Source of the DNA: Vampirovibrio chlorellavorus
GTDB lineage: Bacteria > Cyanobacteriota > Vampirovibrionia > Vampirovibrionales > Vampirovibrionaceae
Assembly: GCF_003149375.1 (NCBI RefSeq)
Contig: NZ_QFWH01000003.1
Location: 124,001 to 188,000, forward strand
Length of the DNA stretch: 64,000 nt
Direction: 5' to 3'
Shown here: positions 12,522 to 24,602 of the stretch, in pieces
How the letters are laid out: the number at the start of each line of letters is the position of its first letter
How positions within the stretch are numbered: the stretch's first letter is position 1
Made by a program: the position numbers and the translations under genes
The notes under the pieces: model-generated
Seen by the model: the letters and a program-made list of their open reading frames with translations, nothing else
Told to the model about the DNA's origin: nothing
Database searches by the model: none

Positions 12522-14378
12522 TTATCGAATCCGGGGTTTCAGCAGATCAATGGATTCCAGGGTCGGATCGGCGATATCGGTTTGCAGATCGCCAGTCTGG
12601 ATGGTTCCAACGCTGCGTACCCGAGGGGCATTGGCCTTGATGGGGGTGACTTTATCAGTACGGCTCTTGTAATCGTTGGGCAACAGCTCGCTACGCACCC
12701 CGAAGTGAATGCGGGCGGTGGGCTGGTTGCGGAACGGTTCCTCGTTTTTGCGGTTCAGCAAACCAAAGGCCACATCCAGAAAGCCCTGGGCATAGTCCGT
12801 CAGGTGAGCCCGTAGACCGAAACCGGCGCTAAGCAGAGAGGTTGCGGCGGCGCTGCTGTAGAAGGGACTGCTTTTGTCACGCCAGACCTGACCGTAATCG
12901 GCAAACAGGGCGCCTTGCAGGCGTTCGCCCAGCCAGGGGCTGACACGGGAGAGCAGGGGCAGCGGGTAACGCCATTCGGCGCCCACATTGTAGCCTCTGT
13001 CCCCAATTAGTAGGCCCTGGGTGTAACCGCGCACGCTATTGATACCGCCCAGCTGGAACTGCTCGATGGCGGGCAGGGCGTCGGGGCTCCACTGGGAGTA
13101 GGCCCGCAGGATGAGCAGGTTGTTTTTGGGCAGGCGGGTCACCCGGGTCAGGTAGTTTTCCAGCTTGAAGAAGCTGGTGTTGGCCCCCAGCCATTCCGGG
13201 GCCAGCGTCACTTGCGCCCGGGAAAAGGAGCGCCCGTAGCGATCGTATTTATCGTAGTTCAAGCCCAGGGCCAATGAGCGAATGTCATCGGTGCCCGTCC
13301 TGTCGCCATCAAAAAAGCTGCTGACCCGGCGGGCGTTCAGGCCCAGGTCGGTACTCCAGACGCGCTCTTTGCCCAGCGGCTGGGTGACCAGCAGGCCGTA
13401 GTTGTAGGCGTTCCCAATCAAATCGGGCTGGTTGGGCAAGCGCAAGTCCACGTTCACGTGGCTGAAGCCAAACAATCCGCTGATTTCCGTGCCCTTGCTG
13501 CCCACCGGTAAGGTGTAGGAGGTTGAAGCAATGGTTGACCCGGTGGAGCCGATGTAGCGCAGGTTAAAGCGATCGCCCCGGCCCGTGACATTGCGGTTGG
13601 TAAACTCAGCACCCCAGCGGTATAAGCCGATGAAAGGACGACCGGCGTTATCAGACGTCAAAGCCAGCTGGAAGGGCTGTTGCTCTTTGACATCCAGTCG
13701 GATTTTGGTTTCCCCGGTGCGCTCGCCGGGTAACAGGGTTGCTTTGACCCGGTAGGGCTCTTGCCGGTTGATGCGCAGCAATTCCTGTTCCAGAGCGGGA
13801 ATGTTCAGCGGCTGGCCGGGGGTTTCGCTGATGCGTTTCTCAATGACCTTGGCCTTGAAGTATTTGTTGCCACTCACTTCCATATCGCCCACGATGCCTT
13901 CCAGCACCTTCACGGTAATGGCGCCCCGCTCCAGATTCTGGGGCGGGATGAAGGCCAGCGAGGTCAGATAACCCCGTTTGCGGTATTCCTCGTTAATGCC
14001 TTGCACCAATTGAGCCAAGTCTTCGGGGCTCAGTTTCCGGCCTTCGTAACCCACCACCAGTCGGCGCATTTCCTCGTTGGAAACGATGGTGTTGCCTTCC
14101 ACATCCACCCGATCAACCTGGAACAGATCGCTGGTCACTTGCACGATGGGCGGTTGGGCTTCCACCCGGATGCCGCCGGGTTCGTTCTCTTGCAGGGTGT
14201 CCGCCTGGGCGGGAGCGGCGGTGGGGACTGACTGGAAATAGTAAGGAGATCCGCTTTGCGGGCCCAGCAGCGTTCCCGGGTTGGTTTGGGCGGGAAACAC
14301 CTGGGCCATGGCTGCGCCCGGCAACAGGGTAAGGACACTGGATAGAATAATGGCCTGACGGTGGAAATCGGATCTCAT
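12522..14378 (-). CDS. Two-partner secretion outer-membrane transporter (TpsB, ShlB/FhaC/HecB family)
   Basis: A 618-residue outer-membrane protein: signal peptide (AIILSSVLTLLPGAAMA), linker with a proline-rich part, two POTRA domains (about residues 85-235; FQVDRVDVEGNTIVSNEEM, then MEVSGNKYFKAKVIEKRI), and a C-terminal beta-barrel with many alternating strands. FQLGGINSVRGYTQGLLIGDRGY contains the family's VRGY motif at the barrel tip. It exports a beta-helical partner across the outer membrane. ATG 14378 is preceded by AAGGA at about 10 nt; ATG 14390 is too close to that site. The gene is divergent from its likely substrate gene at 14918. Confidence 0.9.
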   Translation of the reverse strand: MRSDFHRQAIILSSVLTLLPGAAMAQVFPAQTNPGTLLGPQSGSPYYFQSVPTAAPAQADTLQENEPGGIRVEAQPPIVQVTSDLFQVDRVDVEGNTIVSNEEMRRLVVGYEGRKLSPEDLAQLVQGINEEYRKRGYLTSLAFIPPQNLERGAITVKVLEGIVGDMEVSGNKYFKAKVIEKRISETPGQPLNIPALEQELLRINRQEPYRVKATLLPGERTGETKIRLDVKEQQPFQLALTSDNAGRPFIGLYRWGAEFTNRNVTGRGDRFNLRYIGSTGSTIASTSYTLPVGSKGTEISGLFGFSHVNVDLRLPNQPDLIGNAYNYGLLVTQPLGKERVWSTDLGLNARRVSSFFDGDRTGTDDIRSLALGLNYDKYDRYGRSFSRAQVTLAPEWLGANTSFFKLENYLTRVTRLPKNNLLILRAYSQWSPDALPAIEQFQLGGINSVRGYTQGLLIGDRGYNVGAEWRYPLPLLSRVSPWLGERLQGALFADYGQVWRDKSSPFYSSAAATSLLSAGFGLRAHLTDYAQGFLDVAFGLLNRKNEEPFRNQPTARIHFGVRSELLPNDYKSRTDKVTPIKANAPRVRSVGTIQTGDLQTDIADPTLESIDLLKPRIR

Positions 14379-14390
14379 AGGGGACGGCAT

Positions 14391-14917
14391 CCTTTTTGGA
14401 TTGAGTGCTGGTTTTGTGTGAGGTGCAAAAACATAAGGTATAAATGTGGGGGAGGGTGGGACAAATGGTTGTAAACTTGGACGATTGGCGGAGCTTTGAG
14501 GGGAACCGGGATCTTACTATAGAAACCCCCATTGGCAGTGGCAGTGGCAGTGGGATTCTTATATAAGGAAGGTGACGCCAGCTGGATCTGTGGAGTCCGT
14601 TGGGACGCATGGGGGGAGAAGCGTTCAGGAAGATCTTTTTAGGTCTAGCGTATTATAGGAAATCAAAAATAAAAGTAAATTAAAAAAGCAAGAGACAAAG
14701 AAAGATTACGAAAGCTATATCTTTCGGACACACGGACTACCCCCAATTCGACGGCCAGCATGGAGAATCCAGCCCGGCAGTTGCTATCAAAAATTTTTAA
14801 TGTATGATTCACACTTGAATATTCTTAATAAAAACCATTCAAAGTTTTTTCCCTTTTAAATTTGATCCTCACCCGCTTTTGGCCACCCCTTTCCACTTTC
14901 AAGGAGTATTTTATCCG
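14391..14917. other. Intergenic region between the divergent TPS genes
   Basis: About 530 bp without a supportable gene. The half next to the exoprotein gene (14640-14870) is very AT-rich and contrasts with its neighbours, which suits promoters for the two divergent genes and possible binding of silencing proteins. A short GGCAGTG-type repeat (three units of GGCAGT) lies at about 14534-14550. No clear -35/-10 pair was assigned. Confidence 0.5.
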
Positions 14918-16846
14918 ATGGCTTTGTCGACACGTCCCAATGGCCGCTTTCTGGTAGCGTTGTCCCTGACAACCAGCTTGCTGCTTGCCAATTCCCCCCT
15001 GTCATTCGCTGGCCCCGGCGACACCAACAGCACCAATTACGGTGAAAATGTGGCTGGCGGCACCTACTACAACACGACCGGCAACCGAACCACCTTTACC
15101 AACAACGGCAACATGATTGTTGGGGCGGGCACCACCGTGCGGGGTCTGGAAGTGAACAACAACGGTGACCTGACCGGCAACGGCGGACACCTGCACTTTG
15201 ACGCGCGGGGCGGGGTCATGCGGGTAGATGGCACCATTGACGCCAGCGCCGCTCTGGGCCAAAACGGGGCCTATCTGGGTAATGGCGGTAAAGTGACCAT
15301 TGACGCGGGCGCTCTGGTTCAGAACGGTAACATTTTCGCCAACGGGTTAAATGGCGGAACCATCGTATTCAACGTGGGTCAGCTCACCGTGGACCCCGGT
15401 TCCCGGATTGAAGCCCTGGCCACCGGGGCAAATGCCTTGCCCGGCCAAATCAATATTAACGCCACCGGGCAGGTGACCATCCCCAATGGGGCGGTCATTG
15501 ACGCCTCCGGCAACTACGTTGGCGGCTACAATGCCAATGTCATCCAGATTTCCGGTAGTGTGGTCAATCTGGACGGTGTGGTCATGGCCAACGGTCTGAG
15601 CGCCGGGGCCAAGGGTGGGGCCATCGGGATCTATGGTTCCGAGATTGCCCTGGGTAGCAACGCCAAAGTCACCGCCAATGGGGCTGAAGGCGGTCAGGGT
15701 GGGGCCATTAACGTTGCCGCCACTGAAAAAATTGCCATCAGCAGTGGTGCTGAAATTACCGCCAATGGCGGGCTAGGCGCCAGCGGCGGGGCTGTCCTCG
15801 TGGGGGCGGCTCTGGATTCCAGCGGAAACGTGGGGCTCCTGACCAAGTCAGTTGAGAACAACGGTCTCATTGCCGCCAATGGGGGCGATGGCGACAGCGG
15901 CGTGGATGCCGGGAACGGTGGCGTGGTCGTCGTATTGGCGTCCAACAGCGTTAGTAACACCGGTCGCATCAGCGCCGACGGCGGAAACGGTTTTAACGGC
16001 TACAACCCCAGCAATGGGGGAAATGGTGGCAAGGTTGGCTACGGCTCGGATGGCGACGTAGGCAACAGCGGCAGAATTACCGCCAATGGCGGTAATGGCG
16101 GCACCAATCCCAATGTCGAGCAAGGTCCTGTGAGTGAAACGCAGGACGAGCATGGCAATGTCAGCTACCAGCAGGTCTCTCTGGGTCAAAACGGTGGCCG
16201 GGGCGGCAATGGTGGGGAAGTCCGGGTGGCTTTCAATACCAACATCCGCAACGACGGCAGCATTGAAGTGGTCGGTGGCAATGGCGGCAATGGTCAGGAG
16301 GCTCAAGCCAATGAGACCGACTATCAGGGCCAGCCGGTTCATCAGTACGCGCTGGCCGGTAATGGCGGCGACGCCGGTAACGGCGGTAAGGTTCTGTTCC
16401 ACGGTGAGCCCGGACAGGACGTGTTGAACAACGTCAATGTCAACGGCGGCAGTGGTGGCCAGGGTGGTAACGCTTCCACCAGCAGTGCCTGCGGTTGCGC
16501 TACCCCGGGTGCCGGTGGTGCCTGCGGGGCTCCCGGTGAGATTCATGTAACCCCCAAACCGCCGTGCGCCGGGGGCGGCACTTGCTCCCCGCCGCCCAAG
16601 CCCCCGGAGAATCCTTTATTCCCGCTGTACCCCAAAGAGTATGGCACCCTGGGCGATACCCTGCCCCCCAACGCCGGTAACGTGCTGAGCTACAACCGTT
16701 CCATCTTCCTGGCCCGCTCGCCGCTACCCATCATTCAGAAGAAGACCCCTCCGGCGCCTCCGCCACCACCACCGGCTAAAATCATGCTGGTCAAACCCAA
16801 GCCGAAGCCGCCGCAGAAAAAAGTACCGGTGCGTGGCTACTGGTAA
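14918..16846 (+). CDS. Secreted beta-helical exoprotein, probable TpsA partner
   Basis: A 642-residue protein with a signal peptide ending in SPLSFA (cleavage near residue 31). From residue 35 to about 530 it is built of short G/N-rich turns (NGGNGGTNPNV, AGNGGDAGNGGKV, repeated ITANGG, ISADGG, IAANGG steps). This is typical of right-handed beta-helix exoproteins. The C-terminus has four cysteines (ACGC, PPCAGGGTC) and ends in a proline/lysine-rich tail. Pairing with the divergent TpsB suggests it is the exported partner. The usual N-terminal haemagglutination (TPS) domain is not obvious. ATG 14918 follows AAGGAG. Confidence 0.75.
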   Translation: MALSTRPNGRFLVALSLTTSLLLANSPLSFAGPGDTNSTNYGENVAGGTYYNTTGNRTTFTNNGNMIVGAGTTVRGLEVNNNGDLTGNGGHLHFDARGGVMRVDGTIDASAALGQNGAYLGNGGKVTIDAGALVQNGNIFANGLNGGTIVFNVGQLTVDPGSRIEALATGANALPGQININATGQVTIPNGAVIDASGNYVGGYNANVIQISGSVVNLDGVVMANGLSAGAKGGAIGIYGSEIALGSNAKVTANGAEGGQGGAINVAATEKIAISSGAEITANGGLGASGGAVLVGAALDSSGNVGLLTKSVENNGLIAANGGDGDSGVDAGNGGVVVVLASNSVSNTGRISADGGNGFNGYNPSNGGNGGKVGYGSDGDVGNSGRITANGGNGGTNPNVEQGPVSETQDEHGNVSYQQVSLGQNGGRGGNGGEVRVAFNTNIRNDGSIEVVGGNGGNGQEAQANETDYQGQPVHQYALAGNGGDAGNGGKVLFHGEPGQDVLNNVNVNGGSGGQGGNASTSSACGCATPGAGGACGAPGEIHVTPKPPCAGGGTCSPPPKPPENPLFPLYPKEYGTLGDTLPPNAGNVLSYNRSIFLARSPLPIIQKKTPPAPPPPPPAKIMLVKPKPKPPQKKVPVRGYW

Positions 16847-17145: not shown

Positions 17146-17685
17146 TTAAGGAATCAATCGCTTCACGGAATCCACCATGCCGGGCGTGGGGGCCGCACTT
17201 TTTTTCCACAAAACCTGCCCCTCGGGCCCCAGCAGGATGAAGGCGTATTCCTCCTGCTGCAGGCCCAGCGATTTTTTAAACGCCTGCGAATTGGTGTACA
17301 ACGGGTAAATGCGTCCCATCAGCGGCTTTTCATTCACCGCCTTGCGCATAAAGGCTTCCACGGAAGGCTTGAAGCTCTTGTACTTGGGATCGATCACGGC
17401 CACTTCCAGCACCTGAACGTTGGCCCCCGTGGCTCGCAGACCATCGAAAAGCAACACGCCCTTCTCCAGCGTGGACTGGTGTCGGGGATGAAACCCCACG
17501 GCCAGCAGCACCCGCTTCCCCCGAAACGCGTCTGGCAGTTGCAGGCGACTGGCGCCATTCAAACTGACCAACTCCTCCCGGGGCAAGGGTGAGGCCAAAC
17601 TTGTCGCTTGCGTATAAAGCCAAAAGCAAGCAATATAAAGTAGAACAAAGGCAGTGTTTCGAGGTGTTCGCCAAAGTCTGATCAT
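17146..17685 (-). CDS. Exported thioredoxin-fold protein (ATP10-like/DUF4174-like)
   Basis: A 179-residue protein with an N-terminal signal or anchor (FVLLYIACFWLYTQATSLAS) and a thioredoxin-like body: RGKRVLLAVGFHPRHQSTLE, VQVLEVAVIDPKYKSF, and the end FILLGPEGQVLWKKSAAPTP. It lacks a CxxC pair, so it is not a standard disulfide oxidoreductase. The layout recalls the Atp10 assembly factor or DUF4174 proteins, but this is tentative. ATG 17685 is preferred, with GGAGG 13 nt upstream; an in-frame ATG at 17709 is possible. It is divergent from the fatty-acid operon. Confidence 0.65.
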   Translation of the reverse strand: MIRLWRTPRNTAFVLLYIACFWLYTQATSLASPLPREELVSLNGASRLQLPDAFRGKRVLLAVGFHPRHQSTLEKGVLLFDGLRATGANVQVLEVAVIDPKYKSFKPSVEAFMRKAVNEKPLMGRIYPLYTNSQAFKKSLGLQQEEYAFILLGPEGQVLWKKSAAPTPGMVDSVKRLIP

Positions 17686-17750
17686 AAGGATGCCTGCACC
17701 TCCATTCATGCAACGTCTGCCCATTTTACAACATTCAGCATACTATTTTG

Positions 17751-17766
17751 TATACCAAAAGGTATA
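17751..17766. promoter_or_regulatory. Upstream operator-like inverted repeat
   Basis: TATACC-AAAA-GGTATA is a perfect 16-bp inverted repeat. Its core TACC-N4-GGTA is the same as in the site at 17855-17866. It lies between the divergent thioredoxin-fold gene and the fatty-acid operon. Confidence 0.65.
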
Positions 17767-17817
17767 AGTTTCTAAACCATTCAAAATCGAAGCAAGAGGG
17801 ATATATTGAAGTTTCAT

Positions 17818-17845
17818 TTGACAGTCAAAGCGGTTCCGTTAAACT
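17818..17845 (+). promoter_or_regulatory. Likely sigma-70 promoter of the fatty-acid operon
   Basis: A perfect -35 TTGACA (17818-17823), a 16-bp spacer and a -10-like TAAACT (17840-17845). The start of transcription would fall at or next to the downstream operator-like site. Confidence 0.6.
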
Positions 17846-17854
17846 TAAATAGTC

Positions 17855-17866
17855 TACCATTCGGTA
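17855..17866. promoter_or_regulatory. Downstream operator-like inverted repeat
   Basis: TACC-ATTC-GGTA lies just after the -10 element and 6 bp before the desaturase ATG. A protein bound here would block initiation and cover the ribosome-binding region. No clear Shine-Dalgarno sequence precedes the ATG. Confidence 0.6.
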
Positions 17867-17872
17867 TATGAT

Positions 17873-18820
17873 ATGAGTACGATTTTAAAAATTCTGGACA
17901 GTGATTACGCGCTCAAAGGCCGTGCCCCCCTCGCCCAACCGTCCAATACCTCCGAGTGGTCCCGAGAGTGGTCGCGTTGGATTCCCTTTGCCTTTTTGCA
18001 CGCGGGGATGTTGGGTGTGTTCTTTTGCGGATGGTCCCCTTTCGTGGTGGGTCTGACCCTGGCCCTGTACTGGGTGCGCATGTTTGCCATTACCGCCTTT
18101 TATCACCGCTATTTTTCGCACCGCACCTTCCAAACGGGTCGTATACAGCAATTTATTTTTGCCGTGTGGGCCATGACCTCCGTGCAGCGGGGGCCTTTGT
18201 GGTGGGCCTCTCACCACCGACGTCATCACCGTTATTCGGATCAGCCCGGTGACCCGCATTCCCCGGTTCGGGAGAGTCTGTTGCAATCGCATATTGGCTG
18301 GATGACCGTGCCCGGAAATTTGCAGACCGATTACTCCCTGATTAAGGACTGGGCCCGTTTCCCGGAGCTGGTGTGGCTGAATCGCTTTGACTGGGTGGTG
18401 CCAGTCCTGTACGCCATCGCCTTGTATGCGCTGGGTGCTTGGTTGGAGTCCGCCTTTCCGGGCTTGGGCACCAATGGCCTGCAATGCCTGATCTGGGGCT
18501 TCTTCGTCAGCACGGTGATCCTGTTTCACGGGACCTGCACCATCAATTCCCTGTCCCACAAGTTTGGCACCCGGCGCTACAACACCCCGGATGACAGCCG
18601 CAATAATCCGTGGCTGGCCATCCTGACTTTGGGAGAAGGCTGGCACAACAACCACCACTTCTACCAGAACTCCGTGCGTCAGGGGTTTTACTGGTGGGAG
18701 TATGATGTGACCTACTACATCCTGAAGCTGATGTCCTGGGTGGGTCTGGTGCATAGCCTCAATCCGGTTCCCGCGGAAGCCTACCAGTCCAGTCCCAAAA
18801 GCAGGACCCGGCAGTCATGA
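17873..18820 (+). CDS. Membrane acyl-CoA/acyl-lipid desaturase (delta-9 type)
   Basis: A 315-residue di-iron membrane desaturase. The three histidine boxes are present: HRYFSH (from about residue 78), HHRRHH (about 114-119) and HNNHH (about 258-262). Four hydrophobic segments fit the family topology. It inserts a double bond into saturated acyl chains using O2. As the first gene of the operon, it would supply the unsaturated chains that the CFA-type methyltransferases downstream use. The ATG is 6 bp from an operator-like site. The 3' end overlaps the next gene by ATGA. Confidence 0.93.
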   Translation: MSTILKILDSDYALKGRAPLAQPSNTSEWSREWSRWIPFAFLHAGMLGVFFCGWSPFVVGLTLALYWVRMFAITAFYHRYFSHRTFQTGRIQQFIFAVWAMTSVQRGPLWWASHHRRHHRYSDQPGDPHSPVRESLLQSHIGWMTVPGNLQTDYSLIKDWARFPELVWLNRFDWVVPVLYAIALYALGAWLESAFPGLGTNGLQCLIWGFFVSTVILFHGTCTINSLSHKFGTRRYNTPDDSRNNPWLAILTLGEGWHNNHHFYQNSVRQGFYWWEYDVTYYILKLMSWVGLVHSLNPVPAEAYQSSPKSRTRQS

Positions 18821-20130
18821 AGAAGCGTCTGGCCATTATCGGCAGCGGAATTTCCGGGCTGGGGTGCCTGTATTTTTTGCATCAGCAGTATCAAATCACC
18901 CTCTACGAGAAAAACGACTACGTGGGCGGGCACACCAACACGGTGGAAGTGGAAGAAGACGGCCAGCAACTGCCCGTGGATACCGGGTTTATGGTCTTTA
19001 ACAAAGTCACTTACCCCAACCTGCTGAAGCTGTTTGAGACGCTGGAAATTCCCATCAAGCCCACCGATATGTCCTTTAGTGTGCGCCACGATACCCATGG
19101 GCTGGAGTGGAACGGGGCCGGGCTGAACAAGCTGTTCGGCCAGCGTAAAAATATTTTCAATCCCCGTTTCTGGCGCATGGTTCAACAAATGGATCGCTTC
19201 ACCAAAGAAGCCCTGGACAATCTGGACAACCCCCGCTACAACACCCTGACCGTGGCGGAACTAATCGCCGAGCGGGGTTATGGGCAGGATTTTCTGGAGT
19301 TGTTTATGGTGCCCATGAGTTCCGCCATCTGGTCCACGGCCCCCCACAAAATGCTGAAGTTCCCGGCCCGCACCCTCATTCGCTTTTTCCACAATCATGG
19401 GTTTTTGGGGCTGGATACCCACTATCAGTGGTACACCGTGGATGGCGGGGCCCGCACCTACGTGCGCAAATTGCTGGCCCTCTGTCAGCCGGAAATTTTA
19501 CTGAACCGCACGGTGCAAGCGGTCACCCCGCATGCCGATGGTACGGTGCGTGTGCAAGCCCAAGGCCCCGATGGGCAGACCGAAAGCCGGGACTTTGACG
19601 CGGTTATTCTGGCCTGCCACGCCGATCAATCTCTGGCCGCGCTGAGCCAACCATCCGACTTGCAACAGCGCTTGTTGGCCCCGTTTCGTTATGAAAGCAA
19701 CCTGGCCACCCTGCACACCGATGCCTCGGTGCTGCCCAGAACCCAACGCTGCCGGGCCTCCTGGAACTATCAAATCAAATCGGCCAAACCTGATCCTCAC
19801 AATCCAGAAATTTTATACGACGCCGCTACCCACTACTGGATGAACAGCCTGCAAGGGGTGTCTGAAAAACAGGATTATATCGTGTCTATCAACGGGCAAC
19901 GCTGGATGCGCCCGGACAGCATTCGGCAAGCCATCGCTTACGAGCATCCCATTTTTGATGAACCCGCTGTGGCCGCTCAGGATCAACTGGCTGAGCTGAA
20001 TGCGGAAGGGCAGCAAACCCATATTTATTTTTGCGGCAGTTATTTTAAGTACGGCTTTCACGAAGACGCCTTTACCGCCGCCCTCAACCTGAGCGGCCAA
20101 CTGGTGGAGACCCTGACATGGCGGCGCTGA
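18817..20130 (+). CDS. FAD-dependent oxidoreductase (COG2907, amine-oxidase-like)
   Basis: A 437-residue flavoprotein with an N-terminal dinucleotide fold (IIGSGISGLG, then an acidic strand end at YEKNDYVGGHTNTV). The family typically occurs beside DUF1365 and CFA-synthase genes. Relatives in Rhodobacter sphaeroides act in furan fatty acid synthesis, where a flavoprotein dehydrogenates a methylated acyl chain; I recall this from general knowledge and the exact orthology is not tested. It overlaps the desaturase by 4 nt and DUF1365 by 13 nt, so translational coupling is likely. Confidence 0.88.
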   Translation: MKKRLAIIGSGISGLGCLYFLHQQYQITLYEKNDYVGGHTNTVEVEEDGQQLPVDTGFMVFNKVTYPNLLKLFETLEIPIKPTDMSFSVRHDTHGLEWNGAGLNKLFGQRKNIFNPRFWRMVQQMDRFTKEALDNLDNPRYNTLTVAELIAERGYGQDFLELFMVPMSSAIWSTAPHKMLKFPARTLIRFFHNHGFLGLDTHYQWYTVDGGARTYVRKLLALCQPEILLNRTVQAVTPHADGTVRVQAQGPDGQTESRDFDAVILACHADQSLAALSQPSDLQQRLLAPFRYESNLATLHTDASVLPRTQRCRASWNYQIKSAKPDPHNPEILYDAATHYWMNSLQGVSEKQDYIVSINGQRWMRPDSIRQAIAYEHPIFDEPAVAAQDQLAELNAEGQQTHIYFCGSYFKYGFHEDAFTAALNLSGQLVETLTWRR

Positions 20131-20957
20131 ATTCCTGCCTGTACGAGTGCCAGGTCTATCATCGTCGGCTGGCCCCCAAAACGCATGATTTCCAGAATCG
20201 TACCTTTTTCTTTTATCTGGATCTGGATGAGCTGCCCCAACTGGAAAATCGCTTTCAGTGGTTCAAGATTGGGCGTCGGGCGTTTTATGAGTTTCGAGAA
20301 TCCGATCATCTGCCCACCCCGGTGGGGAGATCGCTGAAAGAGCGGGCCGTTCAGGCCTTTCAGGAACACGGACTTCAGCAGCCCATCGCCAAAATTGGAT
20401 TGCTGACCAATATGCGCACCCTGGGCTATGTGTTTAATCCCATCAGCCTGTACTTTGCCTTTGATGACGCGGGGCGTTGCATGGGCAGTCTGGCCCAGGT
20501 GGAGAATACCTTTCGGGAAATGAAAGTGTTTCCGATTCTCAATCCTGCACAGAATGCCACCGAAGATCAAACGTATTCATTTTCCAGTGAACGCATCAAG
20601 TATTTTTACGTCTCTCCCTATTCTCAACTGGATCAGCGGTTTCGCTTTCAGGTCAGCCCGCCGGGGGAGCGCATTCATTGTCAGGTGTCCAGTTTGGCCG
20701 GTGAGCAAACATTGCTGGACAGCGGCTTTCGGGGCGAAAAACACCCGTTGACCGACAGCCAGCTCCTACGGCTCAGTCTACGTTACCCGTTGATGACCTG
20801 GCAGGTGATTGCCCTGATCCACTGGCACGCCTTGATTCTGTGGCTCAAGCGCTTGCCGCTTCACTTGAAAGAGGCCCAACCGTTTAACCAGCGGCAAGTC
20901 CTGCGACCCAGACACGATTTACAGCAATTTTACGCACAACAGGAGGCCCGGCCTTGA
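20118..20957 (+). CDS. DUF1365 family protein
   Basis: A 279-residue protein matching DUF1365, with CQVYHRRLAPKTHDFQNRTF near the start, LTNMRTLGYVFNPISLYFAF in the middle and NTFREMKVF after it. Its activity is not known, but it is nearly always linked to the COG2907 flavoprotein and a CFA-type enzyme, as here. ATG 20118 lies inside the end of the flavoprotein gene, and its stop overlaps the CFA start as TTGA. Confidence 0.9.
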   Translation: MAALNSCLYECQVYHRRLAPKTHDFQNRTFFFYLDLDELPQLENRFQWFKIGRRAFYEFRESDHLPTPVGRSLKERAVQAFQEHGLQQPIAKIGLLTNMRTLGYVFNPISLYFAFDDAGRCMGSLAQVENTFREMKVFPILNPAQNATEDQTYSFSSERIKYFYVSPYSQLDQRFRFQVSPPGERIHCQVSSLAGEQTLLDSGFRGEKHPLTDSQLLRLSLRYPLMTWQVIALIHWHALILWLKRLPLHLKEAQPFNQRQVLRPRHDLQQFYAQQEARP

Positions 20958-22258
20958 AAACCCTGGAACGTCCAAGCACCTTGAAAGCACAGGGAAAAGC
21001 GCATCTGCACGCGGTTCCCAGCTTGCCCAAAAACCTGTCCTGGTCGGCTAAAACGGTGGTCAAGCTGTTATCTGCCATGCGCAAAGGACAGCTCACCCTG
21101 TACTTCCCTGATGGCAGCGTGTACCCCATCGGGCAGGAACCGGACAGTTCCTTTCAGGCCGCCATTCAGGTGAATGAGGATCGCTGTTTCAACCGCATCA
21201 TTCAGTATGGGCACATCGGTTTTGCCGAAGCCTATCTGGATGGGGAGTGGGACACCCCCGATCTGGAGGCGGTCATCGCCTGGTTCATCCTGAATATTGA
21301 AGATTCTACGGTGCTGGAAGGCTCCAAAAACAAAGTGTTCTGGGTGAACCTGCTGGGCAAGCTGAACCGGCTCTATCACCTGCTGCGGGCCAACAACGTG
21401 GACAACAGCAAGAAAAATATCCACGAGCATTATGACTTGGGGAACGAATTTTTCCAGATTTTTCTGGACCCCACCATGACCTACTCCTCGGCCCGCTTCA
21501 CCCATCCGGAGCAATCGCTGGAAGCGGCCCAAATCAGCAAGTACGATGCCCTGTGCCAAAAATTGCAATTGCAGCCCAGCGATCGGGTGCTGGAAATCGG
21601 CACCGGTTGGGGGGGCTTTGCCATGCACGCCGCCCGTAATTATGGTTGCACCATCGACACCACCACCATTTCCGAAGAGCAATTCAAGCTGGCCACGGCC
21701 CGTATTGCCGCAGCGGGGCTGAGTGATCAAATTACGGTACATTTGCAGGATTACCGCAAACTGAGCGGGCAGTACGACAAAATTGTCTCCATTGAAATGC
21801 TGGAAGCGGTGGGGGATGCCTATCTGGATACCTATTTCGCCCAATGCTCCCGCTTGCTCAAACCGCACGGGCTGTTGGGCATTCAGTACATCACCTGCCC
21901 GGACAGTCGGTACGAACTACTGAAAAACAACGTGGATTTTATCCAGAAACACATTTTCCCAGGCTCCCTGTTGCCCTCCGTGGGACGGGTGAATCAGGCC
22001 ATCAACCGCACTGGCAATCTGTTCCTGCACGATCTGGAAGATCTGGGCAACAGCTACGCCAAAACCCTGCAACTGTGGTACGACGCCTTCAACGCCAACC
22101 TGAGCGAAGTGCGGCGGCAAGGCTTTGACGAGCGGTTTATCCGCAAGTGGAATTACTACCTGATGTACTGCAAGGCGGCCTTCCGCATGCGTAACATCAG
22201 TGTGGTGCAGGCCATTTATACCAATCCCAATAACCTGTCCCTGTGGCAGGCCTTGTAG
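20954..22258 (+). CDS. cfa: Cyclopropane-fatty-acyl-phospholipid synthase family protein
   Basis: A 434-residue SAM-dependent enzyme. The N-terminal lipid-binding region is followed by NIHEHYDLGNEFFQIFLDP, the SAM-binding VLEIGTGWGGFAMHAA (from about residue 212) and the IVSIEMLEAVGDAYLDTYF block typical of CFA synthases. It adds a methylene, or a methyl, to acyl double bonds in phospholipids. Translation starts at TTG 20954, preceded by a perfect AGGAGG eight bases upstream, in a TTGA overlap with DUF1365. It is one of two CFA-like enzymes in this operon. Confidence 0.92.
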   Translation: MKTLERPSTLKAQGKAHLHAVPSLPKNLSWSAKTVVKLLSAMRKGQLTLYFPDGSVYPIGQEPDSSFQAAIQVNEDRCFNRIIQYGHIGFAEAYLDGEWDTPDLEAVIAWFILNIEDSTVLEGSKNKVFWVNLLGKLNRLYHLLRANNVDNSKKNIHEHYDLGNEFFQIFLDPTMTYSSARFTHPEQSLEAAQISKYDALCQKLQLQPSDRVLEIGTGWGGFAMHAARNYGCTIDTTTISEEQFKLATARIAAAGLSDQITVHLQDYRKLSGQYDKIVSIEMLEAVGDAYLDTYFAQCSRLLKPHGLLGIQYITCPDSRYELLKNNVDFIQKHIFPGSLLPSVGRVNQAINRTGNLFLHDLEDLGNSYAKTLQLWYDAFNANLSEVRRQGFDERFIRKWNYYLMYCKAAFRMRNISVVQAIYTNPNNLSLWQAL

Positions 22259-22283
22259 GGCCACCGGAAAGGAGCCTCCCGCC

Positions 22284-22631
22284 ATGTTAATCTGGAGTTT
22301 GCGCATCTGGTTCTTGCTGGTGTTTGTGGTGCAAACCACGGTCGTGACCCAAGCCATGCTGCACGAGTCTCTGTTTCAGATCCCGCCGGTGGTCAGCAGC
22401 GATGTGTGGTTTATCGCCACGGTTTATGACGCCTATTTCGCCATTATCGCCTTTGCCCTGTGGGTGTGCGCCCGTGAGCGTACCTGGGTCAGCCGTGTGG
22501 TTTGGTTTTTACTGATTGTGGTGTGGGGCAACGTGACCATGGCCCTGTACATGCTGATTCTGCTGTTCCGTTTGCCCACCACGGCCACCGCCGAGGATGT
22601 GTTTCTAAAGCGAGGTGAACCGCATGTTTGA
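22284..22631 (+). CDS. Small membrane protein, DUF1475-like
   Basis: A 115-residue protein with three hydrophobic helices (LRIWFLLVFVVQTTVV, FAIIAFALWVCA and WFLLIVVWGNVTMALYML). VYDAYFAIIAF and WVSRVVWFLLIVVWGN resemble the DUF1475 family, whose role is unknown. AAAGGAG precedes ATG 22284. It ends 8 nt inside the next gene. Its place between the CFA gene and DUF1295 suggests work on membrane lipids. Confidence 0.75.
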   Translation: MLIWSLRIWFLLVFVVQTTVVTQAMLHESLFQIPPVVSSDVWFIATVYDAYFAIIAFALWVCARERTWVSRVVWFLLIVVWGNVTMALYMLILLFRLPTTATAEDVFLKRGEPHV

Positions 22632-23442
22632 TCTGTTGAGCGTTTCTCAAGTCTGGCCCCTGCTTAGTAGCGCCGCTCTGGTCATTCTGGGCCTGATGCT
22701 GATTGTGACCGCCATTGCCAACCCCCTGAAAAACGCGGGCATTGTGGATGTGGCATGGGCTTTTGGCTTTAGCCTGATTGCGGGCACTTACTATGTCCTG
22801 GGGCAAGGGGCACCGGTGCAAAAAACAGTGATGCTGCTGATGGCCACCGCCAGCAGTTGGCGACTGGCCTGGTACTTGCTGAAGCGGGTCATTGCCACCC
22901 ACCCGGAAGAGGATGGCCGCTATCACGCCTTACGGGAACTGTGGGGTCCCGAAAAATCGCCGTGGCTGTTTTTCGCCGTGTACCTGTTTCAGGGTGTGCT
23001 GATGTTGATCGTCTCCAGTCCGTTTTTATTTGCCGCCCAAAACACCAGCCCTTCTCTCAGTCCGCTTCAATGGCTGGCCTTGGCGGTGTGGGCGGTGGGC
23101 CTGATTTTTGAAGCGGTGGCCGATCAGCAGCTCAAGCGCTTTAAAGATCAGCTTGAGAATAAGGGCAAAGTCTGCCAAAGCGGCCTGTGGGCTTATTCCC
23201 GTCATCCCAATTACTTTTGTGAGTGGTTGCAGTGGATGGGCTATTACCTGCTGGCCCTGGGCGCGCCCGGTGGATGGACGACGATCTATAGTCCCATGAT
23301 TATGCTGTTGTTCCTGACCAAATTCAGCGGGGTGGGCGCCACCGAGGCTCAGGCTCTTAAAACCAAGGGCGAGGCCTACCGTCGGTATCAGGAAAGCACC
23401 AGCCCGTTTATTCCCTGGTTTCCCAAGCGGAAGCCCTCATAA
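22624..23442 (+). CDS. DUF1295 family membrane protein (steroid 5-alpha-reductase-like)
   Basis: A 272-residue multi-pass membrane protein. ADQQLKRFK, then GLWAYSRHPNYFCEWLQWMG is the DUF1295/isoprenylcysteine-methyltransferase-like C-terminal signature. WAFGFSLIAGTYY and GRYHALRELWG in the first half also fit. Family members are thought to reduce or modify lipids using a pyridine nucleotide. ATG 22624 follows GAGGTG; a GTG at 22615 would add three residues. It overlaps DUF1475 by 8 nt. Confidence 0.9.
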   Translation: MFDLLSVSQVWPLLSSAALVILGLMLIVTAIANPLKNAGIVDVAWAFGFSLIAGTYYVLGQGAPVQKTVMLLMATASSWRLAWYLLKRVIATHPEEDGRYHALRELWGPEKSPWLFFAVYLFQGVLMLIVSSPFLFAAQNTSPSLSPLQWLALAVWAVGLIFEAVADQQLKRFKDQLENKGKVCQSGLWAYSRHPNYFCEWLQWMGYYLLALGAPGGWTTIYSPMIMLLFLTKFSGVGATEAQALKTKGEAYRRYQESTSPFIPWFPKRKPS

Positions 23443-23513: not shown

Positions 23514-24602
23514 ATGTGGATTTATAAATTACTGGAAACCAATCTTGTTCCCGATGCGGTCATTCGCTGGGGCATTCGCAACATGCTGGCCCAAAAAGTG
23601 AAGGAGGAAAGCAAGTCCTCCTGGGAAGCACGGCAACAGGCGGTCATGGATTTTGTGGCCGAGTTAAAAAATAGTCCCATCGCCATTGAAACGGATGCCG
23701 CCAATGAGCAGCACTACGAAGTGCCCAGCGAGTTTTTCGATTTGGTGCTGGGGCCGCGTAAAAAATACAGCAGCGCTTACTGGACGGAATCCACCCGCAA
23801 CTTGGGAGAGGCTGAGGAAACCATGTTGGCCTTAACTTGTCAGCGGGCCGATTTGCAGGACGGGCAAACCATTCTGGAACTGGGCTGCGGCTGGGGCTCC
23901 TTGTCTTTGTGGATGGCCGAGCAATACCCCAACGCCACCATCGTGGGGGTGTCCAACTCTCGCAGCCAAAAGGCCTTTATTGACGCGCAGGCCAAGGCCC
24001 GTGGCTTGAATAATCTGGAAATTCTGACGGCCAACATTGTGCATTTTGAAACGGATCGCCAGTTCGATCGGGTGGTGTCCGTGGAAATGTTTGAGCATAT
24101 GAAGAACTATGAAAAACTGCTGGCCAAAATCAGCCGTTGGCTGAAGCCAGAGGGCAAGCTGTTTGTGCATATTTTCACCCATCCCATTTTTACCTATCAT
24201 TACGAAGATAAAGACGGCACGGACTGGCTGACCCGCTACTTTTTCACCGGCGGCACCATGCCGTCGAATGATCTGTTGCTGTACTTCCAGAAAGATCTGG
24301 CCATTGCCAACCAGTGGATTGTGAATGGCACCCATTATGAAAAAACAGCCAATGCCTGGGCCGAGAATATGTACCAACATCGCCCGGCGGTGGAGAAAAT
24401 TCTGGCCCAGACTTACGGGGCGGAAAACCTGACCAAATGGTGGGTGTACTGGAAAGTCTTCTTCCTGGCCTGCGCCGAATTGTGGGGCTACAAAAACGGC
24501 AACGAGTGGATGGTGTCTCACTATCTGTTTGAGAAAAAAGCCGTGCCCCAAAGCGCCCACGCTGATGCCTCAGGCTTGGGCGCCGCTCAGTTGACCCAGT
24601 AA
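23514..24602 (+). CDS. Second CFA-like SAM-dependent methyltransferase
   Basis: A 362-residue enzyme. EQHYEVPSEFFDLVLGPRKK is followed by the SAM motif ILELGCGWGSLSLWMA (from about residue 120), VSVEMFEHMKNYEKLL and a tyrosine/tryptophan-rich C-terminus. It resembles the branch of the CFA superfamily that includes plant coclaurine N-methyltransferase-like proteins and the UfaM-like lipid methylases, rather than true CFA synthase. It follows DUF1295 by 71 bp with AAGGA upstream and appears to be the last gene of the operon. Substrate by context: a double bond in a membrane acyl chain. Confidence 0.88.
   Translation: MWIYKLLETNLVPDAVIRWGIRNMLAQKVKEESKSSWEARQQAVMDFVAELKNSPIAIETDAANEQHYEVPSEFFDLVLGPRKKYSSAYWTESTRNLGEAEETMLALTCQRADLQDGQTILELGCGWGSLSLWMAEQYPNATIVGVSNSRSQKAFIDAQAKARGLNNLEILTANIVHFETDRQFDRVVSVEMFEHMKNYEKLLAKISRWLKPEGKLFVHIFTHPIFTYHYEDKDGTDWLTRYFFTGGTMPSNDLLLYFQKDLAIANQWIVNGTHYEKTANAWAENMYQHRPAVEKILAQTYGAENLTKWWVYWKVFFLACAELWGYKNGNEWMVSHYLFEKKAVPQSAHADASGLGAAQLTQ

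Follow-up and report, generated by a model that had tools for sequence, protein, structure and literature searches.

Paired TACC-N4-GGTA palindromes in Vampirovibrio chlorellavorus as predicted operators of a photolyase-linked TetR-family repressor

Related systems and the desaturase operon

The described systems that come closest to the locus analysed here are compared on the basis of excerpts of the respective papers. In Pseudomonas, the class II LitR regulator controls PhrB, UfaM and FolE, together with neighbouring genes that include SDR and FAD oxidoreductases (PMC9758184). The furan-fatty-acid pathway of Rhodobacter sphaeroides comprises UfaM, UfaD and UfaO, the genes of which are under the control of ChrR; UfaD is a NAD-FAD protein and UfaO carries a DUF1365 domain (PMC7380195). 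PfmR (TTHB023) of Thermus thermophilus is a TetR repressor with operators of the TACC-N4-GGT type, two of which are found at its own gene, and has a regulon that includes fatty-acid genes, as is the case here (PMC7022988).

The window, a stretch of 64,000 nucleotides (C3:124001-188000) of a genome of 2.79 Mb on 14 contigs, holds a plus-strand operon that starts with a fatty acid desaturase gene (17873-18820; PF00487, E 8.9e-23). It continues with the genes for a NAD/FAD protein of the flavin amine oxidase type, the candidate UfaD (18817-20130; PF01593 and PF13450), a DUF1365 protein, the candidate UfaO (20118-20957; PF07103, E 3.7e-65), and a CMAS methyltransferase, the candidate UfaM/Cfa (20954-22258; PF02353, E 1.7e-85). 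The further members of the operon are a small DUF1475 membrane protein (22284-22631, the start being an internal ATG chosen by eye; PF07343, E 4.2e-9 on the ORF 22200-22631), a steroid-reductase-like membrane enzyme with DUF1295 (22615-23442; PF06966) and a second CMAS-type methyltransferase (23514-24602; PF02353, E 4.9e-45).

According to the domains, CMAS, NAD/FAD and DUF1365 enzymes thus occur together in the desaturase operon. These are the enzyme types of the Rhodobacter furan-fatty-acid pathway, the match being one of domains and the product a prediction. The likeness to the Rhodobacter sigmaE-ChrR/Ufa system extends to a role in the membrane and in photo-oxidative stress, but Rhodobacter employs a sigma factor of the ECF type paired with an anti-sigma factor, whereas the operon described here has a sigma70-like promoter with palindromic operators (PMC7380195). 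ChrR (TIGR02451) was detected in none of the 18 genomes of the order, with a control match in Caulobacter, and sigmaE-ChrR was therefore ruled out as the regulator.

With the LitR/CarH regulon of Pseudomonas putida and P. mendocina, the gene set shares a photolyase, a UfaM-type methyltransferase, a FAD oxidoreductase, a short-chain dehydrogenase and folE, a likeness of gene content in which light induction is known for the Pseudomonas side only. LitR/CarH are regulators of the MerR type that respond to light via a LOV or B12 route, whereas the candidate regulator here is a TetR protein (PMC9758184). Four MerR_1 matches were obtained in the genome, of which one is a 153-aa frame and the other three are ORFs (205, 203 and 379 aa) that by eye have no obvious B12 domain; among these three there appears to be no evident candidate for LitR. 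CrtR of Corynebacterium glutamicum is comparable as a non-LitR regulator of light-inducible genes with no evident photoreceptor in the excerpt, but it is a MarR-family protein acting on carotenoid genes (PMC6739363).

Among the operators described in the available text, that of PfmR is the nearest to TATACCN4GGTATA, although its half-sites have a context of the TACCGACCGGTNGG type. In addition, the excerpt makes no link between PfmR and a photolyase, whereas here the photolyase gene overlaps that of the TetR (PMC7022988). The parts of the system are of known kinds (a TetR repressor, palindromic operators and a photo-oxidative regulon) but their combination was not found in print: a literature search for a TetR linked to a photolyase and to light or fatty acids yielded no description of such a system, and a term search in the available text of the V. 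chlorellavorus genome paper showed photolyase and TetR both to be unmentioned (PMC4451040).

Two palindromes around the desaturase promoter

The promoter scan placed a sigma70-like promoter on the plus strand before the desaturase gene (17818-17845; TTGACA-16-TAAACT), as a consensus match only, with TTGACA at 17818-17823, TAAACT at 17840-17845, a spacer of 16 and 10 of 12 matching positions. TTGACA is unchanged in all four aligned genomes. Operator 1 (17751-17766), TATACC-AAAA-GGTATA, is a perfect palindrome with the 12-mer core TACCAAAAGGTA at 17753-17764. Operator 2 (17853-17868), TCTACC-ATTC-GGTATA, has one mismatch to TATACCN4GGTATA and the core TACCATTCGGTA at 17855-17866. Neither has a strand. 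The second 16-mer starts 7 bp downstream of the -10, while its core ends 6 bp upstream of the ATG at 17873. A sequence-only reading of this DNA had described two TACC-N4-GGTA sites around the promoter, with TTGACA between them and the second site 6 bp from the first ATG, and all of this was recovered at the same positions. The two sites are the sole TACC-N4-GGTA copies within the 64-kb window, where 0.27 would be expected; at least two copies were present in 4 of 100 shuffles of the window.

Given its location just downstream of the -10, operator 2 is the proposed block on the desaturase operon promoter. Operator 1 is the proposed site for the promoter of a divergent gene on the minus strand (17146-17685, with the start taken from the 179-aa orthologue in G014). 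The latter encodes an exported protein that we take to be thioredoxin-like or DUF4174-like; there was no Pfam or NCBIfam match at the default threshold and none convincing at E 1. It is a remote homologue (27% identical over 121 residues) of the product of a G009 gene (L112) that runs divergent from TetR; the frame used in this comparison and in the domain search at E 1 started two codons upstream of the likely ATG. By eye, a candidate -10 of the divergent gene (TAAAAT; 17723-17728, minus strand) can be recognized with operator 1 just upstream, and in the alignment site 1 adjoins a conserved TAAAAT/TAGAAT element on the divergent strand. The promoter scan output for the window region contained no minus-strand promoter.

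Some further observations concern the same region. The desaturase ATG at 17873 has no evident Shine-Dalgarno sequence. Transcription likely starts some 20-25 bases upstream of this ATG, and operator 2 would fall inside the 5' end of the operon mRNA. Elsewhere in the window (12522-16846) there is a two-partner secretion-like pair, made up of an outer membrane transporter of the ShlB/FhaC type with Pfam matches on the minus strand and a divergent, glycine- and asparagine-rich repetitive protein of 655 aa with no Pfam match.

Recurrence of the palindrome and the TetR-photolyase locus

Genome-wide, the bare 12-mer TACC-N4-GGTA is not enriched: it occurs at 20 places, where Markov models of orders 1 to 3 predict 13-26. 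Of the 20 places, 13 are within ORFs of at least 80 aa, the remaining 7 being intergenic. The 16-mer TATACCN4GGTATA has exactly two copies against an expectation of 0.014-0.045 under the Markov models, and allowing one mismatch gives four copies, operator 2 among them, against 0.9-2.0. The possibility raised in the sequence-only reading, that the motif is randomly distributed in the genome, hence applies to the 12-mer and not to the 16-mer. Over the 18 genomes of the order, 11 exact 16-mers were found versus 3 for the reversed control; nine are intergenic and two lie in coding sequence (L102 and L109). One-mismatch sites are hardly enriched (71 versus 57 for the control, summed over 10 family genomes), so that the weaker regulon members are to be taken as leads, not as findings.

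That the sites are chance palindromes of an AT-rich intergenic region would agree with the near-chance rate of the 12-mer, but it is next to negligible as an explanation considering the count of the 16-mer, on which a chance origin was rejected, the conservation of the half-sites while the centres change and the functional coherence of the remaining sites. Half-site conservation in our tally of 27 sites is partly there by construction, since these were picked as intergenic and regulon-like.

The exact 16-mers of the genome are operator 1 and a copy at C3:40995, located between a TetR gene and a divergent FAD oxidase gene, with another TACC-N4-GGTA exactly 100 bp away. The TetR gene (C3:41281-41952; L034:7282-7956) is about 100 kb from the window sites. 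Its stop codon overlaps the ATG of a photolyase gene (ATGA), an arrangement that is also found in the L111 relative, and the genes that run divergent from it encode the flavin amine oxidase, CbiX and a NmrA/DUF2867 protein (SDR-DUF2867). Some 2.7 kb downstream of the photolyase gene there is a peptide methionine sulfoxide reductase gene (L034:12049-12525), before which no site was seen.

The TetR protein has an N-terminal TetR_N helix-turn-helix (PF00440, 54.2 bits versus a cut-off of 24). The structure predicted for the L111 orthologue has nine helices and a pLDDT of 93.2. It displays the all-helical TetR fold with a C-terminal ligand domain, and its nearest matches, each over about 180 residues, are QacR (Z 20.1) and FadR (Z 19.9). 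The equal likeness to QacR and the acyl-CoA-binding FadR fits a predicted lipophilic ligand. The sequence similarity to PfmR is remote: the phmmer match (E 8.4e-10, residues 16-167) is one that other TetR proteins equal, and the structural match (Z 17.4) is not the best.

Three TetR_N proteins are encoded in the genome; the other two genes were discarded as candidate regulators, as they lie beside efflux-type genes and have no site. The TetR is present in 10 of 240 genomes of the class, all within the order. In a scan of named genomes the close loci are those of Vampirovibrio MAGs, and the more distant matches (about 24-36% identity) are mostly from Chloroflexi and other TetRs. G015, a genome of the same genus, corresponds to locus L113 of a V. 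chlorellavorus MAG, in agreement with a probable origin of the window in Vampirovibrio.

We consider it likely that the sites are operators of this one TetR-family repressor, the gene of which overlaps the photolyase start, and that it represses a photo-oxidative set of genes. The sequence-only reading had attributed both sites to one regulator, and the palindrome at the TetR promoter, together with its recurrence before orthologous TetR and desaturase genes, supports this.

In six of the nine TetR orthologues of the order the best match within 400 bp upstream has at most one mismatch (0-1), which was equalled in 0-2 of 500 shuffles. In G013 the site is a weak one, equalled in 25 of 500 shuffles, and G010 and G012 have no good site within these 400 bp. 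A further 20 TetR-N loci from the order served as controls, and their best matches contain 3-5 mismatches; the G011 match (22% identical), which has no site, was counted among these control loci and not among the nine orthologues.

For the desaturase, four of the seven orthologues with at least 56% identity have a site (G000, G017, G014 and G015). In the first three both sites are present, at -121/-122 and -20 from the ATG. The half-sites of site 1 are fixed while the central four bases vary, from AAAA (G000) to AAGG (G017) and AGGG (G014). The proximal site lies at -20 to -22 in all four genomes; it is the only one in G015 (at -22; desaturase 65% identical), where the promoter is otherwise hardly alignable. 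In G009 the desaturase gene follows those of TetR and SDR-DUF2867 on the same strand. Conservation in relatives, which the sequence-only reading had made a check, was thus obtained for the most part: it holds for the four orthologues and, as the gene follows TetR, for G009, but G010 and G012 keep the desaturase operon and TetR (a partial match in G012) and have no site with up to two mismatches at a distance of 500 bp or less from the desaturase gene.

The other arrangements in relatives bear on the identity of the regulator, that of G015 being the most informative. In this genome TetR is encoded on a different contig, where its gene has a one-mismatch site, and the photolyase/amine-oxidase promoter, away from TetR, has two sites 99 bp apart; the photolyase and oxidase share 64% and 55% identity with the G000 proteins. 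With the TetR moved and the photolyase promoter keeping its pair, the sites therefore track target promoters and regulator separately. Alternatively, they might belong to one of the other two TetRs or to a non-TetR factor, with the TetR-photolyase gene merely a target. The binding of TetR is indeed deduced from sequence, and G017 has both desaturase sites with no TetR detected in a genome that is 76% complete. Nevertheless, we judge this very unlikely, considering that the site stays with the TetR gene even after its move in G015, that the 20 other TetR-N loci are without it, and that exact intergenic sites are found in genomes with this TetR, plus the incomplete G017.

Function of the paired sites and the proposed regulon

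The sequence-only reading had suggested cooperative repression or looping by one regulator. In such a model two dimers would flank the promoter, and the desaturase operon would be controlled through both sites. In fact, a spacing near 100 bp recurs, at the desaturase (102 bp in G000, 102 bp in G017 and 101 bp in G014), at tetR (100 bp in both G000 and G014) and at the G015 photolyase (99 bp), and the excerpt on PfmR likewise reports two sites at its own gene, at -153 and -7 (PMC7022988). Yet only six of the ten pairs are spaced at 99-102 bp, the other four being 113 bp (tetR of G016) and 171, 156 and 143 bp apart (G009), so that there is no common helical phase. Moreover, with 10.5 bp per turn, a distance of 99-102 bp amounts to about 9.4-9.7 turns, which places the two sites nearly on opposite faces of the helix. 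Nine of the ten pairs are located between divergent genes, and the G015 desaturase, which has no divergent gene as its upstream neighbour, has the proximal site only. Looping or cooperative binding is therefore unlikely, and each site probably acts on a promoter of its own. One operator per promoter is judged likelier than looping from these arrangements, although the rule is not strict because several divergent regions hold a single site.

With one operator for each promoter, a TetR dimer bound to operator 2, directly downstream of the -10, would keep the desaturase/UfaD/UfaO/Cfa operon from being transcribed, whereas one bound to operator 1 would act mainly against the divergent thioredoxin-like gene. 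This TetR would further repress itself and the photolyase, as well as the divergent FAD oxidase followed by CbiX and SDR-DUF2867, and probably also folE2/PTPS, peroxiredoxin/ABC and additional oxidoreductase genes. In response to light, singlet oxygen or a signal from membrane lipids, TetR would be released and a programme against photo-oxidative damage switched on. Such signals, of which membrane lipid state and singlet oxygen were also proposed in the sequence-only reading, are suggested by gene content, namely the photolyase, the enzymes of the furan-fatty-acid type, folE2, peroxiredoxin and oxidoreductases. Since the gene set is close to that of LitR, ChrR was found in none of the 18 order genomes and there is no evident LitR among the three MerR ORFs, we take TetR to be the putative regulator of the photo-oxidative programme in this lineage.

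A more far-reaching proposal, which we offer as tentative, is that TetR is a new photo-oxidative stress switch, found only in Vampirovibrionales, that took over the LitR or sigmaE-ChrR regulon and senses light damage, either by way of an oxidised membrane lipid that acts as ligand and that its operon makes or consumes, or by way of the photolyase/cryptochrome of the overlapping gene. The assignment of the operators to TetR would itself mean that a photo-oxidative and furan-fatty-acid programme, known so far in connection with light sensors of the MerR type or with an ECF sigma factor, has been rewired to a TetR repressor. This would have happened in non-photosynthetic relatives of the Cyanobacteria, among them the alga predator Vampirovibrio. 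As the operator is defined, the regulator gene named and the list of targets short, both binding and the inducing signal are directly testable.

The other candidate members are in line with this functional theme. A site was found before folE2-PTPS (G000, G017 and G015), before a FixH/YtkA-like protein of 159 aa (G000, G014 and G017), before an ABC transporter (G013 and G012), before SDR-DUF2867 (G012), before SDR plus FAD proteins (G009 and G012) and before a DUF1731 epimerase (G016). In G000, TACC-N4-GGTA precedes a peroxiredoxin gene that itself lies just upstream of related ABC genes. One-mismatch sites within ORFs of relatives (e.g. L226, L229, L230 and L234) were left out of this list.

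Two further loci were observed. A one-mismatch pair in G009 (L218:1503 and 1646, on C160), 143 bp apart and not between divergent genes, precedes the gene of a fasciclin-domain protein. An intergenic TACC-N4-GGTA at L247:1501 (C9:101941 of the genome) lies 89 bp upstream of an ORF whose product is presumably RuvB-like.
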